The notes beneath the pieces are model-generated. The model made no database searches, was not told the origin of the DNA, and saw nothing but the letters and a program-made list of their open reading frames with translations. From contig NC_015145.1 of assembly GCF_000189535.1 (NCBI RefSeq), positions 4,186,415 through 4,250,414 of the forward strand: a DNA stretch of 64,000 bases. The letters run 5' to 3'. Below, piece by piece: positions 1 through 60,626 of the stretch; position 1 is the stretch's first letter, and every line of letters begins with the position of its first letter. The position numbers and the translations under genes are program-made. Origin of the DNA: Pseudarthrobacter phenanthrenivorans Sphe3. GTDB taxonomy: Bacteria > Actinomycetota > Actinomycetes > Actinomycetales > Micrococcaceae.

Positions 1-2403
1 GTGTCATCCCTGCTCCTCAACGGACTCCATCAGCGCTCATCATCACGGACGGTCATCGTCATCGACGACGCCGACCAGCTGGACCCGAGCAGCCAGGCCG
101 TCATCGGCTTCCTGGCCCGCCGCCTGGCAGGCACCGAGATCGCACTATTCATCAGTGTCCGCGACACTGCACCGGACCATGGTGCCTTCGCCGGCCTGCC
201 CGCCCTGCATTTGGGACCCATGGGTTACAGCGACACGGTAAGGATGCTCGAGGCCATCCCCGCACGCCAAACAACGACGGCGGCTGCCCACGCGGTTGCC
301 GCAGCAACCCAGGGGAACCCGCTTGCCGCCGTCGAACTTTACCTCCGGCTGCTGGAACGGCAGGCGGAGGGAAAGTACGCCCTCCCTGTTCCCCTGCCCT
401 GCAAGGGCAGCTTTGAGGCGGAGTTCGCCTCAGTGATCGGAGGGCTGACCCCCGCCGCCCGTACAGTCCTTGACCTGCTGTCGCTGTCCTACCGCAGCGA
501 CATTGCCACCTTGGAAAAGGTCACCAGTGACATTTGGGCCGGAGTGGACGAGCTGCTGGCGTGCGGCATGGTGAGCCGCACCGGCCCCCACCTCAGGATC
601 CGCGACCAGCTCCTCAGGGGCTACGTCTTTGCTGCCATGACTCCAGCGGTCCGCACCGCCAGCCACCGCGCCATGGCTGCAGCGGCGGAAGCGACTGACC
701 CCTATGCCCGCCGCTGGCACCTCAGCTTCACGGCGCTGGAACGGCAGACACCTTTCGGGTTGCTCCGGCATGCGGTGGACCTGATCCGTGGCGGGGAAGT
801 GGCCTTCGCTATTGAGTACATCGAGCGTGCCCTCACCATCAATCCCTGGGAAGCGGAAACGGCCGCCCGGCTTTCCAATGTTGCGAAGATGCTGTTCAAC
901 CGCGGGGAGTTTGTGTACGCCAGGCGCTACCTGGACTGGGCCCAGCGGGTGACCCGGAATCCCGCCCTGATCCTGCGGCTGACCGGCCTCTCCTTCGAGA
1001 TCCAGTTCATCCAGGGGGCCGCCGTCCGTTCAAGCATGGTCCTGCGCCTTGCCAAGGAATTCGGCGGGCACGACCCCGCTTATACGGCGAACCTGTTGGC
1101 CGTCGCCGCCCTGTACTACGCGGAACGCTGGGAGCTCAAGGACGCCGCCGCAGTGCTTCGGCATGGCGAAGAGTTCAAGGACTCCGCATCGGCCGAATGC
1201 CTTGCCATCACCGACTGCGCCCGGTTGCTGACCGAAACCATCAGCGGCAACACCGCACGGCTCAGTCGCCAGCATGTGCACGGCGGCGGCGCCAAGGTGG
1301 CAAGCCTGCTGGCGCAGGGGCGCGCCCTGAGCTACGCCGAGCACTACGACCATGCGGCCGAGGCCTTCGCCATGGTGCGGACTTTTGCGGACGACAGCCA
1401 CATCAACTGGCGGGAAACCGCGGCCTTCCTCGCAGTGGACAACGAAATCCGCGCCGGGAACGTCCGTACCGCGGTCCGGCTCATTGACGAGCTTGAGCTC
1501 CACGAACCCGAGATCAAGTACCACCGCGGGCTGCGGTACATCTTCCGTGTGTGGCGGGCCCACGCGATGGGGGATGAGGCGCTGGCCCAGGTCCACCTGG
1601 CCGAAGCCCAGCGTCACTCGAGCGCGGACAGCCATCCCGCGGTCACCGCCCGGCTCGCCGCCTGCCAGGGCCACTTTGCGCTGCTGCGGGGTGACCTCGC
1701 GGAGTCCTTGGCGCAGCTCACCCGTGCCGTGGAAATCGGGATGGAATTTGGAAACCCCGCGCTGCTGCGCTGCGAGGCGGACCTCGTGGAAGTCCTGGTC
1801 CGGCTTGGCCGGCACCGTGAGGCCACCCAGGCACTGGTGCGGCTGGAGAGCCGGGCTGTAGGCCTGCGCTCCCCCTGGCTGATGACTGCCGTTGCCCGCA
1901 GCCGGGCCATGCTTGCTGACGGAGAGCAGTCGCTGCAGCTGTTCAGCCAGGCGCTGGAAAACCGGAACGCCCACGATTCACTGCTTGAAAGGGCCCGGAC
2001 CCTGCTGTGCTACGCCGAGCGCCTCCATGCCTTTGGCCGGTTGCGGGACGCCCGTGACGCCCTGCTGCGGGCCAAAGTGATGTTCGATGAAGCGGGTGCC
2101 GACGCGTGGACCCAGCATGTGGATTCACTCCTGCTCGACGAAAGGGTGGAGCCGGCCCGGCCCCAAGGGAACCCTGCCATGCTCATGCTGGCGGACCATG
2201 AACGCGCACTGGCAAAAATGGTGGCCCGGGGCATGCGCAACAAGGAAATTGCCGCCACCCTTTACGTGTCAGTACGGACCGTCGAAGTACGCCTCACCGC
2301 CATCTACCGGAAGCTTGGCGTGGAGTCCCGCGCCCAGCTCACAGCCCTGGCAGCAGGCAAGGAACCGGCGCCGGCGGAGGCCTACGTCCTGCCTGCAATC
2401 TAG
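1..2403 (+). CDS. LuxR-family transcriptional regulator with ATPase domain (LAL type), 5' truncated by window edge
   Basis: The reading frame is open from base 1, so the true start and the Walker A motif lie outside the window. The first visible residues include a Walker B-like stretch (TVIVIDDADQLD), as in STAND/LAL ATPases. The middle (about residues 250-700) is alpha-helical and TPR-like. The C-terminus (about residues 731-783) is a LuxR/GerE helix-turn-helix with the typical RNKEIAATLYVSVRTVEV core. Such proteins are ATP-dependent transcriptional regulators that respond to an unknown ligand. It lies directly upstream of the exopolysaccharide operon on the same strand, so a role in controlling that operon is plausible but is inference only. 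The final 17 residues after the HTH are an unstructured Ala/Pro-rich tail. Confidence 0.85.
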   Translation: MSSLLLNGLHQRSSSRTVIVIDDADQLDPSSQAVIGFLARRLAGTEIALFISVRDTAPDHGAFAGLPALHLGPMGYSDTVRMLEAIPARQTTTAAAHAVAAATQGNPLAAVELYLRLLERQAEGKYALPVPLPCKGSFEAEFASVIGGLTPAARTVLDLLSLSYRSDIATLEKVTSDIWAGVDELLACGMVSRTGPHLRIRDQLLRGYVFAAMTPAVRTASHRAMAAAAEATDPYARRWHLSFTALERQTPFGLLRHAVDLIRGGEVAFAIEYIERALTINPWEAETAARLSNVAKMLFNRGEFVYARRYLDWAQRVTRNPALILRLTGLSFEIQFIQGAAVRSSMVLRLAKEFGGHDPAYTANLLAVAALYYAERWELKDAAAVLRHGEEFKDSASAECLAITDCARLLTETISGNTARLSRQHVHGGGAKVASLLAQGRALSYAEHYDHAAEAFAMVRTFADDSHINWRETAAFLAVDNEIRAGNVRTAVRLIDELELHEPEIKYHRGLRYIFRVWRAHAMGDEALAQVHLAEAQRHSSADSHPAVTARLAACQGHFALLRGDLAESLAQLTRAVEIGMEFGNPALLRCEADLVEVLVRLGRHREATQALVRLESRAVGLRSPWLMTAVARSRAMLADGEQSLQLFSQALENRNAHDSLLERARTLLCYAERLHAFGRLRDARDALLRAKVMFDEAGADAWTQHVDSLLLDERVEPARPQGNPAMLMLADHERALAKMVARGMRNKEIAATLYVSVRTVEVRLTAIYRKLGVESRAQLTALAAGKEPAPAEAYVLPAI

Positions 2404-2556
2404 GCTCTGACGCCTGCAAATGCAGGTACCCGCAGTTTCCACACTGTTCCTCCACAGGACCCACAAAGCCCCGTCCGAACCCCGCCACAGGCCCTTTTCC
2501 ACAGCTAGTTTTGCTTCACGGTCAGAGCAAAAGCGGACATGCCGGAAGGGGTCACC
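2404..2556 (+). promoter_or_regulatory. Leader/promoter region of the exopolysaccharide operon
   Basis: This 153-base gap separates the LuxR-type gene from the polysaccharide operon. It contains a short inverted repeat (CCTGC-AAAT-GCAGG, 2413-2426) and several copies of a CCACAG-like word. I cannot assign -35/-10 boxes with confidence. It is the only sizeable gap before some 16 kb of tightly packed genes, so the operon promoter probably lies here. Confidence 0.4.
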
Positions 2557-4182
2557 ATGGCAGAAATACCAGTCACCCGAACTCCGCGTGCTGCCTTCAA
2601 CTGGCCCGTTGCACCCGTTGCTGCACAGCGGATGCAATCCGTGCCGTTGGCGGCGGCCGAGACCGCAGGAACCCGGCTTCTGCTGCCGCCAACTGCCGCC
2701 CCGCAAACAGGAGCTGCCGGCCCTTCCACGCCAGGTACCACAGGCAAGGCGTCCGGCCGCAAACGGGCAGCATCCTGGATTGCCGCCCACACCAATCTCC
2801 TCCGGGCCGCGGACTCACTCCTGGTGGTGGGAGCGGTCTACGGAGGCTACCTGCTCTCCAATGTTGGCTTCGCCCCCGGCGGGCCTGGCGACGCAGGAAC
2901 CATCCTCACGGCCGTGGCCGTGGCAGGCACGTGGCTGGCAGCGCTGGAGATCTACCGGACGCGCGACTCGAAGGTCATGGGGGTGGGGGCGGACGAGTAC
3001 AAACGCGTTGCGTCGGCGACGCTGCGGATCTTCGGGCTCATGGCCATCACGGCAGTGGTTTTCAACCTTCACGGAGCGGGAGCCTTCGTCACGGTCTCGC
3101 TCCCGCTGGGGCTGTTGGGCCTCACGGCGAACCGCTGGATGTTCCGCCGGCGCCTCACCGCAGAGAAGGCGAAGGGGCGGCATCTCTCCCGGGCCATTGT
3201 TGTGGGTGACGCGGAGGACGTCCGCTACGTGGTGAAGCAGGTGTCCCGGAAGTCCGGGGCCGTCTACCAAATCCTGGGAGTTTGCCTCCCGGGCGCGCGG
3301 CGGGGTGCCAGCCTGAAGGTGGATACAACCTTCGTCCCGGTGCTTTCCTCCACAGACGACATTGCCCGGACCGTCCGGCTGGCCCAGGCCGATTCGGTGA
3401 TCGTGGCGGGCCCCCTTCCCGGCGGGAACAAATTCATCCGCGAACTGGGATGGAAGCTCGAAGAGTGCTCCGCAGAGCTGATCCTTGCCGCCACCCTCAC
3501 CAATGTGGCCGGTCCCCGCATCCACTGGCGTCCGGTGGAGGGCCTGCCCCTGATGCACGTGGACATTCCCCAGTACACCGGGGCCAAGCACGCCCTTAAG
3601 AGGGTGCTCGATGTTGCGGCGGCGCTGGCCGCGCTCCTGGTTCTCTCACCGCTGCTGCTGGTCCTCGCCGTCACTGTGCGGCTGGACAGCCCCGGACCGG
3701 TCTTTTTCCGGCAGGACCGGATCGGCAAGGGCGGCAGGGTCTTCGGGATGTTCAAGTTCCGGTCCATGGTGGTGGACGCCGAAGCGCGGCTGGCCGCCCT
3801 GGGCGGGCAAAACCAGGGGGCTGGCGTGCTGTTCAAGATGCGCGACGATCCCCGGGTCACGCGGTGCGGCCGGTGGATGCGCAAATACTCCCTGGACGAA
3901 CTGCCCCAACTGTGGAACGTGGTGCTGGGCCATATGAGCATGGTGGGGCCGCGGCCCCCGCTGGACCGCGAAGTCAGCGGTTACGAACGCCACACGCGCC
4001 GCAGGCTGCTGATCAAACCGGGCATCACCGGGCTTTGGCAGATCAACGGACGCTCCGACCTTCCATGGGACGAGGCTGTGCGGCTTGACCTCTACTACGT
4101 CGAAAACTGGTCCATTGCCGGCGACCTGCTGATCCTCTGGCGGACGTTCCGGGCAGTCATCCGGCCGTCTGGCGCCTACTGA
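2557..4182 (+). CDS. Undecaprenyl-phosphate sugar phosphotransferase (initiating polyprenyl glycosylphosphotransferase)
   Basis: Transfers the first sugar phosphate from a nucleotide sugar to undecaprenyl phosphate, starting exopolysaccharide repeat-unit assembly at the inner face of the membrane. The protein has an N-terminal bundle of membrane helices (about residues 80-180), a Rossmann-like central region, and a C-terminal bacterial sugar transferase domain from about residue 346. That domain shows KRVLDV, the FFRQDRIG and FKFRSM motifs, KYSLDELPQLWNV, MSMVGPRPP and KPGITGLWQ, all diagnostic of the WbaP/WcaJ/CpsE family. An ATG at 2539 is in frame, but the GGAAGGGG element sits at a proper distance from the ATG at 2557, so I prefer 2557. 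First gene of the operon; 27 bases separate it from the next. Confidence 0.93.
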   Translation: MAEIPVTRTPRAAFNWPVAPVAAQRMQSVPLAAAETAGTRLLLPPTAAPQTGAAGPSTPGTTGKASGRKRAASWIAAHTNLLRAADSLLVVGAVYGGYLLSNVGFAPGGPGDAGTILTAVAVAGTWLAALEIYRTRDSKVMGVGADEYKRVASATLRIFGLMAITAVVFNLHGAGAFVTVSLPLGLLGLTANRWMFRRRLTAEKAKGRHLSRAIVVGDAEDVRYVVKQVSRKSGAVYQILGVCLPGARRGASLKVDTTFVPVLSSTDDIARTVRLAQADSVIVAGPLPGGNKFIRELGWKLEECSAELILAATLTNVAGPRIHWRPVEGLPLMHVDIPQYTGAKHALKRVLDVAAALAALLVLSPLLLVLAVTVRLDSPGPVFFRQDRIGKGGRVFGMFKFRSMVVDAEARLAALGGQNQGAGVLFKMRDDPRVTRCGRWMRKYSLDELPQLWNVVLGHMSMVGPRPPLDREVSGYERHTRRRLLIKPGITGLWQINGRSDLPWDEAVRLDLYYVENWSIAGDLLILWRTFRAVIRPSGAY

Positions 4183-52134: not shown

Positions 52135-52418
52135 GACAAAGTTCCACTTGGACTTGCTCCGATGCGGCGGGCCGGCAACTTAGCCTTGTTCCGGCAGGGG
52201 AGTCGACACCACCGCACCGCTGCTTGCACAAGGCAAAGGGAGATGCTGCCTTCGCCGGACTGTAACCTTGGAAGGGCGCCTGGGGCAGCCGCTTTCCGCC
52301 GGCCGCCTGTGGGCTACGCATCAGGGCGCCCCGGAATATTCAGCATCAGGTAACAGTTGTGCCATGTGGCCGGCCTCCGAGGGGAGGCACGTCAAATAAG
52401 GAAGAGGTTCACCGTTCA
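52135..52418. other. Intergenic region upstream of trxB
   Basis: 284 bases. A short imperfect inverted repeat lies near 52170-52195 (GCCGGCAAC / GTTCCGGC). The only well-defined element is the SigR/SigH-type promoter at 52333-52358. In mycobacteria sigM and another gene lie at this position; no such gene is present here. Confidence 0.6.
52333..52358 (+). promoter_or_regulatory. SigR/SigH-type (oxidative/thiol stress) promoter of trxB-trxA
   Basis: GGAAT at 52333-52337 and GTT at 52356-52358 are separated by exactly 18 bases, matching the GGAAT-N18-GTT consensus of Streptomyces SigR and mycobacterial SigH. The start codon of trxB lies about 60 bases downstream. trxBA operons are classical members of this regulon. 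Confidence 0.85.
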
Positions 52419-53375
52419 GTGACCATCGCAGAAAACACCGCATCCGAAGTACGTGATGTCATCATTGTCGGCTCGGGCCCTGCAGGATACACGGCAGCTG
52501 TCTACACCGCCCGTGCCAACCTCAAGCCCCTGCTGCTGGCCGGTTCGGTTACTGCCGGCGGTGAGTTGATGAACACCACTGAGGTGGAGAACTACCCGGG
52601 GTTCCCAGAGGGAATCATGGGTCCGGACTTGATGGAGAACTTCGAAAAGCAGGCCGCACGCTTTGGCACTGAGATCCAGTTCGAGGATGTCACAGCTCTT
52701 GACCTTGCGGGTCCCGTTAAGACGGTGACGATCGCCACCGGCGAGAGCTTCCAGGCAAAATCCGTGATCCTTTCTACCGGTTCTGCCTACCGTGAGCTCG
52801 GTCTTCCCAACGAGAAGCGGCTCTCCGGCCACGGGGTCAGCTGGTGTGCAACCTGTGACGGTTTCTTTTTCAAGGACCAGGACATCGCGGTCATTGGTGG
52901 CGGTGATTCTGCCATGGAGGAGGCGCTCTTCCTTACCAAGTTCGCGAAATCGGTTACGGTTGTCCATCGCCGCGACTCGCTGAAAGCCTCAAAAATCATG
53001 GCCGACCGGGCCCTCGCGCACGAGAAGATCAATTTTATCTGGAACAGCACCGTTGAGGACGTTCTGGGTGGAGAGAAAGTAACAGGGCTGACGTTGAGGA
53101 ACCTCATCGACGGCACCGTTTCGAACTTGGCTGTCACCGGTGTCTTTGTTGCGATCGGAAACGATCCACGAACTGACCTGGTCAAGGATGTCCTCGACCT
53201 TACGCCCGAGGGAACTATTGCCGTCCAGGGGCGCAGCTCCAAGACCAGCATTCCCGGCGTCTTCGCCGCCGGCGATGTAGTGGATCCAACGTACCGCCAG
53301 GCCATTACAGCCTCCGGCTCCGGCTGCGTAGCCGCCATCGATGTGGAACACTACCTGGCCGACCTTCCCGCTTAA
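52419..53375 (+). CDS. trxB: Thioredoxin reductase
   Basis: 318 residues from a GTG at 52419 (GGAAGAGG upstream); the frame is open to 52359 but would add a non-conserved extension. Reduces thioredoxin with NADPH. FAD motif [20 protein letters not shown], the redox-active Cys143-Ala-Thr-Cys146 in SWCATCDG, the NADPH motif [12 protein letters not shown] and the C-terminal GVFAAGDV are all present. Followed 32 bases later by trxA, from the same SigR-type promoter. Confidence 0.96.
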
Positions 53376-53407: not shown

Positions 53408-53734
53408 ATGAGCAACGCTAAAGATGTAACGGATGCAAGTTTCAGCACGGACGTTTTGTCCTCTGACAAGCCGGTTATTGTCGACTTCTGGGCTGAGTGG
53501 TGCGGTCCCTGCCGCAAACTGGGTCCCATCCTCGACGAGATCTCGGTTGAGTACAGCGAGAAGGTGGATGTCGTGAAGGTGAATGTCGACGACAACCCTG
53601 CTATCGCGGCAGAGTACGGCATTACGTCTATTCCGGCTGTTTACCTGTTCCAGGGTGGCGAGGTAAAGAGCACCGTCATTGGCGCTAAGCCCAAGCAGTT
53701 TTTCGAGAAGGAGTTCTCTGACGTTCTCTCGTAA
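53408..53734 (+). CDS. trxA: Thioredoxin
   Basis: 108 residues. The active site is WCGPC, with Cys32 and Cys35. [47 protein letters not shown] and the cis-proline before AVYLF are typical. General cytoplasmic disulfide reductant, reduced by TrxB. An AGAGAGA motif upstream is a plausible ribosome site. A strong terminator follows. Confidence 0.96.
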
Positions 53735-53770
53735 GCGTTCGACGTGACCCATTGGGCACGAGAACCGGAA

Positions 53771-53809
53771 GAAGTGGTCACGGCCTGAGGGCGGTGGCCA
53801 CTTCTTTTT
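53771..53809 (+). terminator. Rho-independent terminator of trxBA
   Basis: GAAGTGGTCAC at 53771-53781 pairs with GTGGCCACTTC at 53794-53804 (one G-U pair), with a 12-base loop, followed by TTTTT at 53805-53809. Confidence 0.9.
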
Positions 53810-53862
53810 CTCTCTAAGTGCTGGACGCAGTATGAGGTTGAGTTCTGGCGGTTGTCACCGGA

Positions 53863-53884
53863 AACTGAACAACTGACGAACTGA
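53863..53884 (+). repeat. Three-copy 8-bp iteration
   Basis: AACTGA begins at 53863, 53871 and 53879, exactly 8 bases apart. It lies just before the first parS site. Function unknown; short enough to be chance. Confidence 0.4.
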
Positions 53885-53948
53885 CATCAGCAATAGAAGT
53901 CCTAGGCTGGTGGAGCGATTATGAGATAAGTAGACAGGGGATGGGGCT

Positions 53949-53962
53949 GTTTCACGTGAAAC
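53949..53962. promoter_or_regulatory. parS: parS site 1
   Basis: GTTTCACGTGAAAC, perfect match to the palindromic ParB-binding consensus; the flanks extend the palindrome by one base on each side (T...A). Confidence 0.95.
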
Positions 53963-54266
53963 ACAACGCGAGCCGCTGCTGCCGGCCACGCGCCTCTCTG
54001 ATGGAACCTGGCCTAGGAGTCTACAGAAGTAGTCATGGCCAGTTGTTATGCGGCTGGATAGAGCAATTCCGGTGTCAGGGTCGATCCTCATGTACTTGTA
54101 CGGTGCGTGCAATTCCTTTCGGACCTGTCAAGCGCTAGTCCGAGGAGCGGAGGCTATACGCCCCACTTGGGGACACTCCGGCTAATAGAAGGTGCAAGAC
54201 CCGTCGACCAGAAATCCAACGTTCTTCTTAAACGCTCGCGTGCAACGGTTGGCGTCTCCGTCGGAT

Positions 54267-54300
54267 TTCACGAAGAAGACTCGTTTTGGTTCTTCGTGAA
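54267..54300. repeat. 11-bp inverted repeat near parS site 2
   Basis: TTCACGAAGAA at 54267-54277 and its perfect complement TTCTTCGTGAA at 54290-54300, with a 12-base spacer. It ends 35 bases before parS site 2. No T run follows, so a terminator is unlikely; a protein site or cruciform is possible. Confidence 0.6.
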
Positions 54301-54334
54301 GACGTAGTTCGTCCTTTCTAGCGACCAGCGGCTC

Positions 54335-54348
54335 GTTTCACGTGAAAC
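54335..54348. promoter_or_regulatory. parS: parS site 2
   Basis: Perfect GTTTCACGTGAAAC palindrome. Confidence 0.95.
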
Positions 54349-55079
54349 AAAAGCGAAAGGCGGCGGGAACGCCTACTGCTCTACGCATAGTAGTTAGAGT
54401 GCGTGCGAAACCCGATGAGCGGTACACACTCACAGCCGACTTGCTACGCCCAGTCGCTGCTCCTTCGAAATCACCTCTCCTTACACATGATCTCGTACCC
54501 TCCAAGCAGCTCCGGGGACGTGGATGGTATGGGGAGTAGGGAATTTGGCCAGCCACGAGTGCGGCATAGGATGCCATCTGTGTCTCCCACACTTTAGCTG
54601 CATCCGTGGGGCCTAGGCCTCGGCGGCCCAAGACTCTACCGCGGCGACTAGGGCAGCGCAACAAATGAAACGATAGAGGGCAGCTAGACCGGCGAACATG
54701 CGGCCCCCCTGCCCGTGCCATGGCGATCCTAGTATCGGGGATCGAGTGGCCACTCCCGCAGCACCGATGGAGTGCAGGCGGCCTGCTGACCTCAGCGCGC
54801 GAATCGTGCCGTAAGGGCAGGATGTGGAACTGGGGTCAGCTCCACCCCAGGGGCGAACACGAGTGAACACACAGTCCATCGCGAGGCGGGCAGGCTCGAT
54901 CCATAGAGTACGCAAAATGCACTGTGGGCTGGAGAATGGTCAGGACATGCACCGCGAGCTGGAGTCGCGACATCAATCTTGTGCAGACACTTGGGTTTCC
55001 AAATTGCGCCAGGGTGTAGCTCCCCGATGCGCTATCGCCGCGCTAGTTCGGACTCTTGGTATGACCGGGGCAGTGCGTC

Positions 55080-55093
55080 GTTTCACGTGAAAC
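55080..55093. promoter_or_regulatory. parS: parS site 3
   Basis: Perfect GTTTCACGTGAAAC palindrome. Confidence 0.95.
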
Positions 55094-55646
55094 ACGAATG
55101 GCCGAAAGCGATATCAATCATTAGGGGAACCCCGAGGGCGACTTCCTCGATCAGGAGTGCGGTGGCCTGCAGCGGTACACAAGTGCCAGCCGTCGACCGA
55201 TCAGAAACACGACGAGCTGCATAAGGCGGCCTTCCCCCTTCCACACCGGAGCGCATCAGGCTTTGGGCTGGCTACTTCCACTGGTCCTGTATATGCAGAG
55301 GACCTGGGACACCTCCGCGTGTCCGGTGATTTCAGGTCGTCGACTGCATGACAGGGTGGAATGGGGGACTTACCGCCCGACTCCGCTTAGTAGACCTTGC
55401 GAGTCATGATGGCCTGCAACCGTGTACTTGCCCCTCGAAGCCATTACCGGGATTTACGGGCACTGCATGAATAGTGCCGCTCGTGGAAGCCGGTGCCGGT
55501 TAGTAAGCACGGTGCGACACGTTTTACGCCAGGGCCTCCACGGGGGCGAACTGCTAGCTGATCCCTGCAAACTCTACAGGCTTCCTCGTCATCTTCCGAG
55601 GCCGGCCCTGCTGTGACCGTACGCGACCAGAAGAAATTGAGCCGCT

Positions 55647-55701
55647 TTATCCACATGTTATCCACAGGTACATGCCACTGATATTCACACCGTTATCCAC
55701 A
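55647..55701 (+). promoter_or_regulatory. DnaA-box cluster A
   Basis: TTATCCACA, the classical DnaA box, occurs at 55647, 55658 and 55693, with a near match (ATATTCACA) at 55681. All are in the same orientation, and the starts are 11, 23 and 12 bases apart, so the sites fall on one 11-12-bp lattice. Confidence 0.75.
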
Positions 55702-55904
55702 GCACGTGGCGCGAATCACCTGCAGCCAGCCCCTGTCGCCGGGGGCCCCTCCGCTATGGTGCCCGTCAACCCGGGCTCTTTCTCCGCGCGAAAGACTGCA
55801 GTAGCCTAGCAATGTTTCCCCCTAGGACGGGCTGGAGCACAGTTTTCCTACTTGTTAGGGTTTAGCGTCCTTTGTGCCCGCAGCATTCGCCGCCCCTCGC
55901 CGCC

Positions 55905-55918
55905 GTTTCACGTGAAAC
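55905..55918. promoter_or_regulatory. parS: parS site 4
   Basis: Perfect GTTTCACGTGAAAC palindrome, located between the two DnaA-box clusters. Confidence 0.95.
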
Positions 55919-56014
55919 CAGGCGCTGGTACCGCCCAGTGCCGTTTACGCATCTGGCCCATCCCATCACTCACAGTGCTCACCGCCCGTCGCGACGACCG
56001 CCTCCAGCCGGCTC

Positions 56015-56059
56015 TTATCCACAAGGATATCCACAACAATGTCCACAGGCTTATCCACC
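56015..56059 (+). promoter_or_regulatory. DnaA-box cluster B
   Basis: TTATCCACA at 56015, then ATATCCACA at 56027, ATGTCCACA at 56039 and TTATCCACC at 56051. The four sites are spaced exactly 12 bases apart and share one orientation with cluster A. Only the first is a perfect box; the regular phasing makes chance unlikely. Confidence 0.7.
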
Positions 56060-56881
56060 GGCGGTTCACAGCTCCTAGGGACCGTCTTATCATTGCCACG
56101 CGCCGAAACAATTGCCTCTTGGCAGTCATCGCGTCGGGGAATCATGCGCGCCGATGGCGACGACCACCAGAACCAGAGCCAGCGCAGCGGTCGCTGGCAC
56201 TATGCCACCGATCCGAAAACACATTCCTGCCCGCCATCTCAAGTACACCGATGCCAGCGGACACGGTCGCGCGCGTGCAATTCCTACGCCAACGGGATAT
56301 CGCCTCGGCTTGCAGCACCTATCAAGGAAGGTACAAACCGACAGGCGATGAATGGAAAGTCGACTAAGCCACTTGATCAGGTTAGGTGGCGAGCAGGCAG
56401 GCAAGTACGGAGAAGTGGCCGCGAGCATGGCTGCACTCAAGGCAACAGAGGGACGCTACCGCGTCCCACGCTGCCACAGTCGTGTCGTGCATGCTGCCTT
56501 CATCATCCACGCAAGGCCAGTCGGAGCGAATCTAGGTTCCACGCTAGGCCGATCCGATCCGACTCATCCGGACCAGGCAGGCCCAATCCTCATGTCGCAA
56601 GCTCAGGGTCACACGGTTCTGACGCCGACCGGACAGCGTTGCACCGTGACTAGGTGTCGCCGTCAGTGCTATTGCTAGTTGTTTCCCTGGGGGAGTTGCT
56701 GCATGCGCTGCTGCTCGTAACCCATCACAACTGTCCTGCAAGCATGCACACCCCGTCTTGGCGACGGCCCATGCCAGTGCTACACACACTGAACCTCCGG
56801 GTCTCGTCACTTAGGCGGCACCCCGATGCGCCCCAATACGGAAAACCATCGGAGGGGGTTACGGCAGGAGACGCGACGACC

Positions 56882-56895
56882 GTTTCACGTGAAAC
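56882..56895. promoter_or_regulatory. parS: parS site 5
   Basis: Perfect GTTTCACGTGAAAC palindrome. Confidence 0.95.
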
Positions 56896-57111
56896 ACGGC
56901 TGAGTTTAGTGAATGGTCACAGCTACAGCAGCCGTTACGTGTCACAGTGACAAGAAAACGCTTCGGCGCTGGCGGTGCTCGCATTTTCCAATCTTCCCTT
57001 GGGCACTGACGGGGGCGTAAGCACATGCTCTAGGTACGGCACAATCCACCAACCAACTCCAAACGGCCTTCGGCCTCGCCCAAAGAGTACAGCGTAGACA
57101 TGCCGCTCGAT

Positions 57112-57150
57112 CATCATCAATGGTGCTGCTGGTCAGGACCGTTGATGATG
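57112..57150. repeat. 9-bp inverted repeat
   Basis: CATCATCAA at 57112-57120 and TTGATGATG at 57142-57150, with a 21-base spacer. No function assigned. Confidence 0.4.
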
Positions 57151-57324
57151 GTCCAGGAGCATCAGACCTCCGGGGTATGAGCCCTGCACGGGTGGCCTCT
57201 TTCTCCTTAGAAGTAGCGGCACCGAGCCGCGGAAGGAACGTCTAGCAGCCGGACGGAGGCTACGCCATGCTGCCGCCGTACGTTGACATGGCCATTTCCG
57301 CGGGGCCGCACCTAGCTGTTTTCT

Positions 57325-57338
57325 GTTTCACGTGAAAC
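57325..57338. promoter_or_regulatory. parS: parS site 6
   Basis: Perfect GTTTCACGTGAAAC palindrome, with the flanking T...A extension plus a further symmetric base pair. Confidence 0.95.
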
Positions 57339-57849
57339 AGAATGGAGGCGTACACGGGCCCATCTACATCAGGACACCTGACGATCCGAATGCATGGTGT
57401 TCACTGCCACCAACATGACGGGATCGCATCGCAACTGTCGGTGCATCCAGGTTTTGGAAGGAGTTGTGACTATGAACGCCCCAGCTGCCAGCGTCCGAGT
57501 CCAACGAAAGAATCACCAGGAGAGCGAGGATAGCTGACCTCAGGAGGTGAGAGGTGACCGCTTGGGCCTGGAATTTGGCGCCAGGGACCACTGATCGACT
57601 AACCTACTGCGTTTCGCGCAATTGCTAAACCGCCATCCGAGGCAATTCGCATAACGCATCCCAACCGAGCTGTGGCAAGCAGTTGAGCACGGGATCGCGA
57701 TTTCACAGCCCTACCATCTGGTTGGAGCTTGCCCTACCTGTAGATAGCAGCGGATTTCCGAGCAGTAGTGCGGTGCCTGACGCACCTCGTCACATCAGAG
57801 GGTTCGCAGGACAGGATGTCCGATGGTTTAGCAGTTTTAGCCTGGGGGT

Positions 57850-57863
57850 GTTCCACGTGAAAC
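57850..57863. promoter_or_regulatory. parS: parS-like site 7 (one mismatch)
   Basis: GTTCCACGTGAAAC, one base from the consensus; the CACGTG core is intact. Confidence 0.8.
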
Positions 57864-58153
57864 ATGACGAGTATTTGGCCTTGCACCGCAAGGGTGTCTA
57901 TATTTCTGGGCCACAGTTGAGAACTCAGCCGTAGGACGCAGCCTCTCCTAGATAGCCCTCACTGCCGCGTCAGGTCGATATCCCGGGGGAGCCCGCGGTA
58001 AAGCGGTGCTCGCAATGCTTGAGATTTTGCGTCAGTCAGTAATCAGGACCGCGCTGAAGAAAGGCATATGCAGACCCAACACTCAGCCCGAGCCAGCTCC
58101 TATGTAAACCAACGGAACTGGCACTGATGCCCTAGCTGGACACGAAAAAATAG

Positions 58154-58187
58154 AAAAGGCCTGATCCGCAAAGGGATCAGGCCTTTT
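58154..58187 (-). terminator. Terminator of the rpmH-parB gene block (may act in both directions)
   Basis: Perfect 14-bp stem: AAAAGGCCTGATCC at 58154-58167 and its complement at 58174-58187, with a 6-base loop. On the minus strand a run of T (opposite 58144-58150) follows the stem, 16 bases after the parB stop. The A/T ends of the stem could also stop plus-strand transcripts. Confidence 0.9.
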
Positions 58188-58202
58188 CATCGTCTTCGTC
58201 GG

Positions 58203-59495
58203 CTAGTTATTTGAGCCGGGCGCCAATACATCCATGATGCGGTTCAGGTCTTCCACGCTCGCGAACTCAATGCTCACCTTTCCCTTGCGCACACCAAGGG
58301 AAATCTTCACGTTCGTATCCAGCCGATCAGAAAGCGAAGAAGCCAAGTAGTCAAGGCGCTCATGGCGGGCGCCGGGCCGCGGAATATTGTTCTTGGCAGG
58401 TTTGGCCGGGTCCTGGTACAAGGTCACGGCTTCCTCGGTGGCCCGTACAGACATGCCCTCGGCGACGATTCTCTGCGCAAGCCGCTCCATTGCGGCAGCG
58501 TCAGGAAGGGCCAGCAAAGCCCGGGCGTGACCGGCAGAGAGTACACCGGCAGCCACCCGTCGCTGTACCAGCGGCGGGAGCTTGAGAAGCCGCAGGGTGT
58601 TGGAAACCTGCGGACGGGAACGGCCAATCCGGTCAGCCAGCTGTTCGTGGGTTGTGCCGAAGTCCTCGAGGAGCTGCTGGTACGCCGCGGCCTCTTCCAG
58701 GGGATTCAGCTGGCTGCGGTGCAGGTTCTCCAGCAGTGCATCGCGCAGGAGGTCGTCGTCAGTAGTGTCGCGGACAATCGCGGGGATAGTTTCGAGGCCC
58801 GCGGCCTGGACTGCCCTCCACCGGCGCTCACCCATGACCAACTCATACGGTTCGCTACCGTCTTCAGTTGACTTTCGCACGACAATTGGCTGGAGCACAC
58901 CGATCTCGCGCACGGAGTGAACCAGCTCCGCCATGTCGTCCTCATCAAAGACAGAGCGGGGCTGTTTGCGGTTCGGGTGGATATCCGCCACGGGAATCTC
59001 GGCGAAGTGGGCGCCGGGTACATCCACCAGTTCAACACCAGAGTCAGGGCGGGCCGGTTCTTCAATCCGTTCGGCGGGGACTTCGGCAGTTGAGGGTGCG
59101 CCCCCGCCGGGTGTCTGTACCTTGTCCTGCTCAGGCCCATCATTCGGCTCAGCATTCGTGGCGGCTTCCGATCCGGAGCGCGCTGCCGCATCATCCGGGT
59201 CCTTGCCGGCGGTACGGGACTTGGGCACTGCGGACTTTCCAGTTGTTCCCTTACCCGCCAGCGCCTTCGATGCGGAGGGCTTGGTGGAGGCAGCTGCAGG
59301 ACGTGCACCGGCAGCCTTGGCCGCGGCTCCGTTCTCGGCGGTCTCCTCGGAAGGTTCAGTCTTCTTTCGCCCCTCAGGAAAAAACAGATCCACCGGACGC
59401 GACACGGTTGGTGCGTTTCCCGACCCGTTGGCAGCGGCGGAACTTGGAATCAGCGCGCCAAGACCGCGGCCTAGGCCCCGTCGCTTCTCGCTCAT
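58203..59495 (-). CDS. parB: Chromosome-partitioning protein ParB
   Basis: 430 residues, longer than typical ParB because of a low-complexity Ala/Lys/Glu-rich N-terminal region (about 1-165). The ParB/Srx nuclease-like CTP-binding fold follows ([15 protein letters not shown], then GERRWRA from residue 222), then an HTH ([20 protein letters not shown]) that binds parS, and a C-terminal dimerisation domain. It loads at parS sites and, with ParA, segregates the origin. The many parS sites lie immediately downstream of this gene. ParA is 63 bases upstream in the same transcript. Confidence 0.96.
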
Positions 59496-59558: not shown

Positions 59559-60626
59559 TTAGCGCTCTGCTATTTCGGCAGCGGCTTCCAGGTAAGACAG
59601 GGCTCCGCTGGAGGAAGGGTCGTACGTCATGACGGTCTGCTGGTAGCTCGGCGCTTCCGAGATGCGCACCGAACGGGGAACAACAGCTGACAGGACCTGA
59701 TCGGGGAAGTGCTGGCGGACCTCGGCGGCAACCTGGGCGGCGAGGTTTGTGCGGCCGTCGTACATCGTCAAGAGAATGGTGGAAACCACCAGATCAGCAT
59801 TCAGGTGCTTCTGGATCATCTCAATGTTCTTGAGGAGCTGGCTGAGTCCCTCCAGCGCATAGTATTCGCACTGAATCGGGATGAGAACCTCGTTGGCAGC
59901 GCAGAAGGCGTTAACAGTAAGAAGGCCAAGACTGGGCGGGCAGTCGATAAAGATGTAGTCGAGCCGCTGCTCGCCGTTCTTCTCCCGCACCTTGGCATAG
60001 ACGTCGATGGCGCGGCGGAGCCGCTGCTCACGTGCCACCAGCGAAACCAGTTCTATCTCAGCGCCGGCAAGATGAATGGTGGCCGGTGCACAAATGAGGT
60101 TATCGATATCCGGGCATGGGGCCACCACGTCGGCAAGGGGGACATCGTTTATCAGCACGTCATAGATGCTGTCCACATCTGCATGATGTTCTATCCCCAG
60201 TGCCGTAGAAGCATTTCCCTGTGGGTCAATATCAATGACCAGCACGTTCAGGCCCGCCGCGGCGAGGGCTGCTGCAATGTTCACGGTGGTGGTGGTTTTA
60301 CCCACACCACCTTTCTGGTTGGAAACAGTAAAGACGCGCGTGTTCTCAGGGCGGGGAAGCTGACGGCCCACAAGCCGCTCGCGGCGTTTGGTCTCATGCG
60401 CCAGTTCACGCGCGATAGGACTGGAATCGTCAATAGCGTCGATGATGTTTGATCTACCCAGAGAAGTTGTTTCACGTGAAACGGCAACGGCCTTGGATGC
60501 ATCCGCCAGCCTGTCGGGATGAATACCCCCTCTTATCGGAGTTCCCAAAGGACCAGCGACGGAACGTGCTGACCCCAAAGACACAAACGGTGGTATCCGT
60601 TGTGTGGAGGCTTCGCTACTGGTCAC
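59559..60626 (-). CDS. parA: Chromosome-partitioning ATPase ParA
   Basis: 355 residues, GTG start. An N-terminal extension of about 95 residues precedes the deviant Walker A (KGGVGKTTTT, residues 105-114). DIDPQGNAST and DCPPSLGLLTVNA are the Walker A' and B motifs. It drives ParB-parS segregation. Residues 49-53 (VSRET) are encoded by a parS site inside the gene. Because the start has only a weak ribosome site, a shorter start is possible; any start downstream of 60469 would put this parS outside the coding region. Confidence 0.95.
   Translation of the reverse strand: MTSSEASTQRIPPFVSLGSARSVAGPLGTPIRGGIHPDRLADASKAVAVSRETTSLGRSNIIDAIDDSSPIARELAHETKRRERLVGRQLPRPENTRVFTVSNQKGGVGKTTTTVNIAAALAAAGLNVLVIDIDPQGNASTALGIEHHADVDSIYDVLINDVPLADVVAPCPDIDNLICAPATIHLAGAEIELVSLVAREQRLRRAIDVYAKVREKNGEQRLDYIFIDCPPSLGLLTVNAFCAANEVLIPIQCEYYALEGLSQLLKNIEMIQKHLNADLVVSTILLTMYDGRTNLAAQVAAEVRQHFPDQVLSAVVPRSVRISEAPSYQQTVMTYDPSSSGALSYLEAAAEIAER
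60469..60482. promoter_or_regulatory. parS: parS site 8, inside the parA coding region
   Basis: Perfect GTTTCACGTGAAAC palindrome; read in the ParA frame it encodes Val-Ser-Arg-Glu-Thr. Confidence 0.95.

Follow-up and report, generated by a model that had tools for sequence, protein, structure and literature searches.

Clusters of DnaA boxes in the proximity of the replication origin (oriC) occur in Streptomyces and are of the same kind as those of Bacillus subtilis. The datA and DARS sites of Escherichia coli also contain DnaA boxes, and parS is not known to be part of them. According to the accessible part of a review, the removal of six DnaA-box clusters from B. subtilis leads to early initiation, and the DnaA sites located outside oriC in this organism seem to lower the amount of free DnaA (PMC5295017); DnaA titration is likewise described as having support in E. 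coli (PMC12371093, in part). The origin itself may be divided, and the excerpted account of the bipartite oriC of B. subtilis and of the two-cluster oriC of Streptomyces presents two groups of DnaA boxes that are able to meet by looping (PMC5448010). A connection with the centromere has been reported in Caulobacter crescentus, in which DnaA binds the parS region (partial text of the review PMC6399470, on Mera 2014), and in Vibrio cholerae, in which ParB2 bound at parS2-B, inside rctA, relieves the block of replication imposed by rctA (PMC3141006, in part). On the other hand, the control of initiation by ParA in B. subtilis is independent of parS location in the portion available of PMC7614844, which counts against a general rule. 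The coupling of replication initiation to centromere segregation is understood in few organisms beyond the model systems, and a literature search, which covered few subscription journals, returned no report joining Arthrobacter, DnaA box and parS.

The window analysed here comprises the last 64,000 bases of the closed chromosome (C1, 4,250,414 bp) of Pseudarthrobacter phenanthrenivorans Sphe3, the genome of which is contained in three contigs. Near its right end, trxB (52359-53375, + strand; Pfam Pyr_redox_2) and the thioredoxin open reading frame trxA (53408..53734, + strand; Pfam Thioredoxin PF00085, 1.4e-29) are followed by a gap of 4.5 kb (53735..58202, as delimited by trxA and parB), and then by parB (58203..59495, - strand; Pfam ParB_N, HTH_ParB and ParB_C) and parA (59559..60626, - strand; Pfam AAA_31, 1.7e-56). 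Since trxA and parB are convergent, the gap, which appears to be non-coding and to constitute the centromere region, sits between two 3' ends. The genome contains seven exact parS cores, all at C1:4240363-4246896, six of them in the trxA-parB gap and one in the parA frame. By pattern matching, the gap contains parS sites at 53948..53963 and 57324..57339 (16 bp, zero mismatches to the pattern), 54334..54349, 55079..55094 and 56881..56896, in addition to the core described below; the site within the parA reading frame is at 60468..60483, and an eighth site at 57849..57864 is a variant with one change in its core (GTTCCACGTGAAAC). Clustered parS sites close to oriC and to parA and parB, both recognized by Pfam, are what characterizes a ParABS centromere.

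Inside this centromere region, eight co-oriented DnaA-box-like sites, all on the + strand, are distributed over two arrays; four are perfect, two carry one mismatch and two carry two. Array A consists of three perfect copies of TTATCCACA at 55647..55655, 55658..55666 and 55693..55701 and of a third box, in order of position, at 55681..55689 (ATATTCACA, two mismatches), a lattice position that is filled in a number of relatives. Array B starts with a perfect TTATCCACA at 56015..56023 and continues at 56027..56035 (ATATCCACA, one mismatch), 56039..56047 (ATGTCCACA, two mismatches) and 56051..56059 (TTATCCACC, one mismatch). The steps are of 11, 23 and 12 bp in array A, where 23 bp corresponds to one skipped lattice position, and of 12, 12 and 12 bp in array B. 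A 14-bp parS core (GTTTCACGTGAAAC, 55905-55918), which differs from the 16-bp form in its two outer bases, is situated in the spacer of the two arrays and precedes array B by 110 bp. An earlier sequence-only reading had described these eight starts on one strand, the four perfect boxes, a lattice of 11-12 bp that is exactly 12 bp in the second cluster and a perfect parS at 55905 between the clusters, all of which was reproduced, the parS as its 14-bp core. In the whole genome (4.54 Mb) there are 41 exact TTATCCACA words on both strands, compared with four for a reversed-pattern control, and four of the 41 fall in this 413-bp element. In having several DnaA-box-like sites in apparently non-coding DNA outside oriC, the element resembles the DnaA-box clusters found near oriC.

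The organization of the element is shared throughout the genus sample. ParB served to find the corresponding region in another 60 genomes sampled from the genus, of which 57 yielded stretches reaching trx, giving 58 whole gaps with that of Sphe3 included. The array pair was scored with a rule (two arrays of the same orientation, with boxes spaced at about 12 bp) written after the sequences had been seen. A pair adjoining trxA was found in 61/61 genomes, 58 with the whole gap and three through further stretches, a count made over related and hence non-independent genomes. The last three genomes (L199-L201) could not be scored at first, two having a longer gap and one ending at a contig edge, and the parB of G014 is carried on a different contig; they pass the rule with A-B distances of 365, 360 and 364 bp, and each has a parS core in the spacer and trxA located 1.3 to 3 kb or less leftward in the orientation of the window. 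In two of them (L199 and L200) the distance from parB to the arrays has grown to more than 11 kb, and the array pair and its parS are still found together near trxA.

Over the 58 whole gaps, the element contains 5-10 boxes (mean 7.8), and the last box of A and the first box of B are 284-367 bp apart (median 322 bp). Its occurrence is far above chance, as the pair is present on the + strand in 58/58 gaps, on the - strand in 0/58 and in 0/580 gaps simulated with a Markov-1 model. Boxes with at most one mismatch number 316 on the + strand and 13 on the - strand. When co-oriented boxes are paired up to a distance of 60 bp, independently of the lattice rule, 298 pairs are obtained; in 137 of them the distance is 11-13 bp (precisely 12 bp in 121), and nearly all of the others are close to multiples of this distance, with none at 1-10, 15-20, 27-33, 38-45 or 50-58 bp. 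A genome-wide search for the triplet pattern gave matches in 43 of the 61 genomes, the DnaA-like hits being those at the array locus and the others, as judged by eye, apparent chance matches or coding repeats. The centre of the element lies at 0.52 of the gap (sd 0.05, range 0.36-0.61), and in 58/58 the element has parS to its left as well as to its right. Distances from the element to the next outside parS range over 120-1770 bp on one side and 55-2660 bp on the other; because these neighbouring intervals vary by more than 1 kb, the held A-B distance has an internal control. The spacer between the arrays, in turn, has a mean identity to that of Sphe3 of 0.628 (n=57, highest 0.689, parS included), compared with a mean of 0.612 and a highest value of 0.673 for shuffled sequences. 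What makes the case strong is that the positions hold while, by these comparisons, the spacer is nearly randomized, parS and a mild AT-rich patch excepted; the maintenance of motif positions across the 61 genomes around such a spacer points to selection on geometry.

The gap that harbours the element measures 3.9-9.4 kb in the 58 genomes, which is long for a bacterium, and parS and the arrays are the only conserved features found in it. When the Sphe3 gap was compared with those of its relatives by blastn, the best 25 of 104 hits corresponded to the arrays and parS. A coding or known-RNA reading of the gap found no support, as Rfam gave zero matches at the gathering score in its 4.5 kb, and a tblastn comparison of 49 stop-to-stop frames of at least 50 aa with the gaps of 57 relatives revealed no conserved reading frame, bar one with three weak hits. 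These results, together with the location between convergent 3' ends, make it extremely unlikely that the arrays serve DnaA-controlled transcription of a neighbouring gene or of an unannotated RNA, even though DnaA is presented as a transcription factor elsewhere in the excerpts consulted.

The sequence-only reading had also raised the possibility that this is the real origin or part of a bipartite one. The gene dnaA starts at C1:392, beyond the chromosome join, so that the arrays lie approximately 8.3 kb from dnaA, in line with the 8 kb anticipated by that reading, and approximately 10 kb from the dnaA-dnaN gap. The comparison with the latter, which it had proposed, reveals a canonical AT-rich origin: boxes are present on either strand and are arranged alike in each of 30 gaps compared out of 65, and the first 300 bases have a mean identity of 0.861 to those of Sphe3 (n=25, lowest 0.724) against 0.606 for shuffled sequences. 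The AT maximum in 40 bp is 0.575 in the array spacer of Sphe3 and 0.725 in its dnaA-dnaN gap, with means of 0.58 and 0.70, respectively, in the relatives, which agrees with the remark that no strongly AT-rich element accompanies the arrays, although a mild patch is a recurring feature of the relatives' spacers. Hence, of the features expected of oriC, the arrays possess a cluster of DnaA boxes and lack both a strong AT-rich unwinding element and a conserved sequence next to dnaA and dnaN. The GC-skew analysis suggested by the same reading was run over 240 kb around dnaA and gave a cumulative minimum 11 kb to the right of dnaA, a signal too weak to place the origin. As a canonical, AT-rich and conserved origin is present in the dnaA-dnaN gap about 10 kb away, the array element is very unlikely to be oriC. 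A second or bipartite origin, with the arrays flanking a spacer that unwinds, would account for ordered arrays with an AT-rich patch between them; it is very unlikely as well, given the canonical origin, the modest AT content and hardly conserved sequence of the spacer and the lack of a skew minimum at the arrays in a weak signal.

The most frequent box word is the same, TTATCCACA, in the arrays and in the dnaA-dnaN gaps. Recognition of the boxes by another protein that reads a similar 9-mer would be compatible with a link to DnaA that is drawn from sequence similarity; the shared word and a tandem spacing that is that of DnaA leave this reading with a near-negligible probability.

Two further groups of sites were observed around dnaA. 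Five DnaA-box-like sites upstream of this gene (L009:174-321) are likely to be part of the origin or of the control of dnaA. Approximately 17 kb to the right of dnaA, a second cluster (C1:17347-18434) of mixed orientation spreads 13 boxes, none with more than one mismatch, over 1.3 kb. Its first boxes are found between a rhomboid gene and a CMD-family gene, beyond which it continues, and a similar dense cluster (7-15 boxes) is found at contig position 16.8-19.5 kb in 11/11 closed relatives examined.

The position of parS relative to the arrays is regular without being invariant. The arrays enclose one exact parS core in 47/58 whole gaps, and in 50/61 genomes when the three further ones are included. 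It is located 107-112 bp before the first box of array B in 28/58, against a mean of 0.53 and a maximum of 4/58 in 2000 draws of random placement; allowing for one lattice step, the register extends to 42/58, a count that has no control of its own. In the 11/58 gaps devoid of an exact internal core, seven have their nearest parS 55-78 bp beyond the point where the last B box starts and four have none near, three of which show a degenerate parS at about the usual place, with none seen in L117. A strict layout with parS between the arrays was consequently rejected. The suggestion of a regulatory site, which the sequence-only reading favoured, or of a link between initiation and segregation is upheld in part: the pair stands beside the parS cluster in 61/61 genomes and parS is often at a nearly fixed distance from array B.

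The internal parS is the sole parS within 500 bp of the element in 41/58. Together with its frequent enclosure by the arrays (50/61), this would suit a corral in which DnaA filaments block the way on either side and so retain the ParB clamps that load at the middle parS, and the available portion of PMC9242446 reports that firmly bound dCas9 halts ParB diffusion on stretched DNA. The same source describes ParB as able to bypass roadblocks on relaxed DNA; moreover, parS lies just outside array B in 7/58 and a further parS is present 120-154 bp before array A in 6/58, which renders such a corral improbable.

Array B tends to a weak-strong-weak pattern, with TTATCCACA at the anchor in 30/45 and ATATCCACC at the next position in 15/45, the anchor being the best box near parS+121, a choice that itself favours a strong box there. 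The mild AT-rich patch of the spacer (55825..55875 in Sphe3) has a recurring position in relatives, as AT content is 0.50 at -80..-40 from parS and 0.385 at -200..-100 (n=47, Wilcoxon p 4.8e-9). The distances from A to parS and from A to B bunch at a period near 11.6, with R of 0.58 (25 distinct values) and 0.55 (32), respectively; controls gave 0.14 and 0.17 at 11.5 and at best 0.26 and 0.32. Register is claimed here and helical phase is not, because the period was scanned, the values are non-independent and a closely similar pattern arises when end boxes are gained or lost on a 12-bp lattice.

Beyond the sampled genus set, the element was sought in named loci, the best 80 of 577 ParB matches. 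The pair rule was passed by 25 of these 80, all labelled Arthrobacter, Pseudarthrobacter, Paenarthrobacter or Sinomonas; the 55 failing it, some of which are cut short of trx, include one labelled Paenarthrobacter and 12 labelled Arthrobacter, beside a split case. In the latter, Arthrobacter sp. MA-N2 (L020), an apparent insertion sequence, as judged by eye, places the arrays 1.8 kb apart in a living strain, and transposase-like frames between array A and parS, at approximately 2300-4100 in the reverse orientation of the gap, split the element by about 1.5 kb. When the non-passing named loci with a gap of at least 300 bp were re-read for both box spellings, a lattice pair emerged in one of them, L042, where it occupies the opposite strand. 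Most of 40 loci from other genera of the family were without arrays by the pair rule and by a lattice test that allowed one mismatch to TTATCCACA or TTGTCCACA, while four carry both arrays or the greater part of them; seven of the 40 stop short of trx and ten have gaps below 400 bp, too small for the element. The lattice test was positive in three (L152, L154 and L159) and the pair rule in two (L152 and L155), and the arrays of L154 and L159, which miss the pair rule, are approximately 420-445 bp apart when boxes with at most one mismatch are considered.

At the level of the order, 34 of 297 sampled genomes gave a triplet match, 30 of them outside the genus. Twelve of the 30, picked by eye, were examined: the match lies in the trxB-parB gap in three, all of family f11, inside parB in one, in the dnaA-dnaN gap in one, just upstream of gyrB in one and near none of the marker genes in six. 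Four triplet-matched f11 genomes (L216, L217, L220 and L234) display co-oriented, phased DnaA-like boxes in the trxB-parB gap, running in the same direction, with zero parS matches between them by four spellings; as these genomes were picked by triplet match, they do not measure frequency. Two f11 genomes without a triplet match (L235 and L236) showed none and one two-box chain, respectively, and arrays were not found in 17 other loci outside f1 and f11, one of which (L241) is without trx. Three DnaA boxes on an exact 12-bp lattice were also noticed inside a parB match in family f3 (L213:8331-8363).

The f11 arrays, devoid of a parS match, and the second DnaA-box cluster 17-19 kb from the contig start, outside the parS region in Sphe3 and in all 11 closed relatives, speak for a plain titration cluster close to oriC, comparable to those of B. 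subtilis or to datA and the chromosomal titration sites of E. coli, occupying a large non-coding space in which parS is a bystander. Titration by DnaA boxes near oriC also has support in the parts available of PMC5295017 and PMC12371093. Such a cluster has no obvious need for co-orientation, a strict lattice, a held A-B distance or a parS about 109 bp from array B, and this explanation is considered possible but rather unlikely.

With moderate confidence, the array pair is instead read as a conserved, non-origin, DnaA-binding regulatory element in the core of the parS centromere, which probably titrates or senses DnaA and couples it to ParB-parS. Of its two parts, the one that makes the element a DnaA sink or sensor is the safer and the one that couples it to ParB-parS the bolder; binding of DnaA, looping and function at the arrays are predicted from the motifs and their arrangement. 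Counting against this reading are the 11/58 gaps without an exact internal core, the f11 arrays with no parS match between them, the split arrays of L020, the control by ParA in B. subtilis irrespective of parS location, the 55 named loci that fail the pair rule and the many loci of other genera that lack arrays. In the proposed mechanism, DnaA would bind each array cooperatively as a short one-directional filament, as suggested by the 2-3 bp between tandem boxes (11-12 bp from start to start), which is the preference of E. coli DnaA: the accessible text of PMC11317965 reports binding to box pairs 2 or 3 bp apart and a large decrease upon insertion of one base pair. The 13-bp steps of some A arrays may represent a weaker binding geometry. 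The two filaments could meet through a loop of approximately 330 bp, with the AT-rich patch helping; domain I of actinomycete DnaA forms a dimer and self-interaction of this domain has been proposed to join distant boxes (PMC13270200, in part), so that the two arrays could pair. Replication reaches the element shortly after initiation at oriC, so that the extra copy would draw active DnaA out of the pool, and the neighbouring parS may let the state of DnaA and the ParB clamps influence each other. By this proposal, the position beside parS would coordinate initiation with centromere segregation.

A stronger version, which is put forward tentatively and falls short of being probable, regards the centromere core as a dedicated replication-segregation switch, in which two co-directional DnaA filaments would pair across a parS-bearing loop, the centromere would keep count of active DnaA, and the loading of ParB and the assembly of DnaA would regulate each other. 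A defined piece of DNA of approximately 410 bp could be deleted, re-spaced or moved in these harmless soil bacteria, and would allow the link between replication and segregation to be tested directly.

Several described systems share part of these features. The DnaA-box clusters of B. subtilis are, like the arrays, groups of boxes outside oriC and near it that likely lower free DnaA, but here the boxes form two co-oriented arrays on a 12-bp lattice, separated by a held distance and placed inside a parS cluster. The datA and DARS sites of E. coli are, similarly, non-coding DnaA-box sites that control the DnaA pool; they are characterized by IHF dependence and nucleotide switching, whereas the arrays, with their intervening AT-rich patch, are known by sequence. 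The two-group oriC of B. subtilis and Streptomyces is the origin itself, in contrast to the array element, which is not at dnaA-dnaN. The DnaA boxes in the parS region of C. crescentus would resemble the arrays in that DnaA acts at the centromere; they belong to a different phylum and, in the available part of PMC6399470, are not described as two phased arrays. The rctA/parS2-B region of V. cholerae chromosome II is, as predicted for the arrays, initiator-binding regulatory DNA with an internal parS, beside parAB, but it is bound by RctB instead of DnaA and adjoins oriCII, and a common sequence is not claimed. An rctA-type arrangement, with parS inside a putative initiator-binding site, may exist here, where parS is located between the arrays in 50/61 genomes. 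Were the centromere core to work as a switch, it would differ from rctA in using the main initiator, DnaA, and from the C. crescentus region in its fixed, bipartite and phased architecture.
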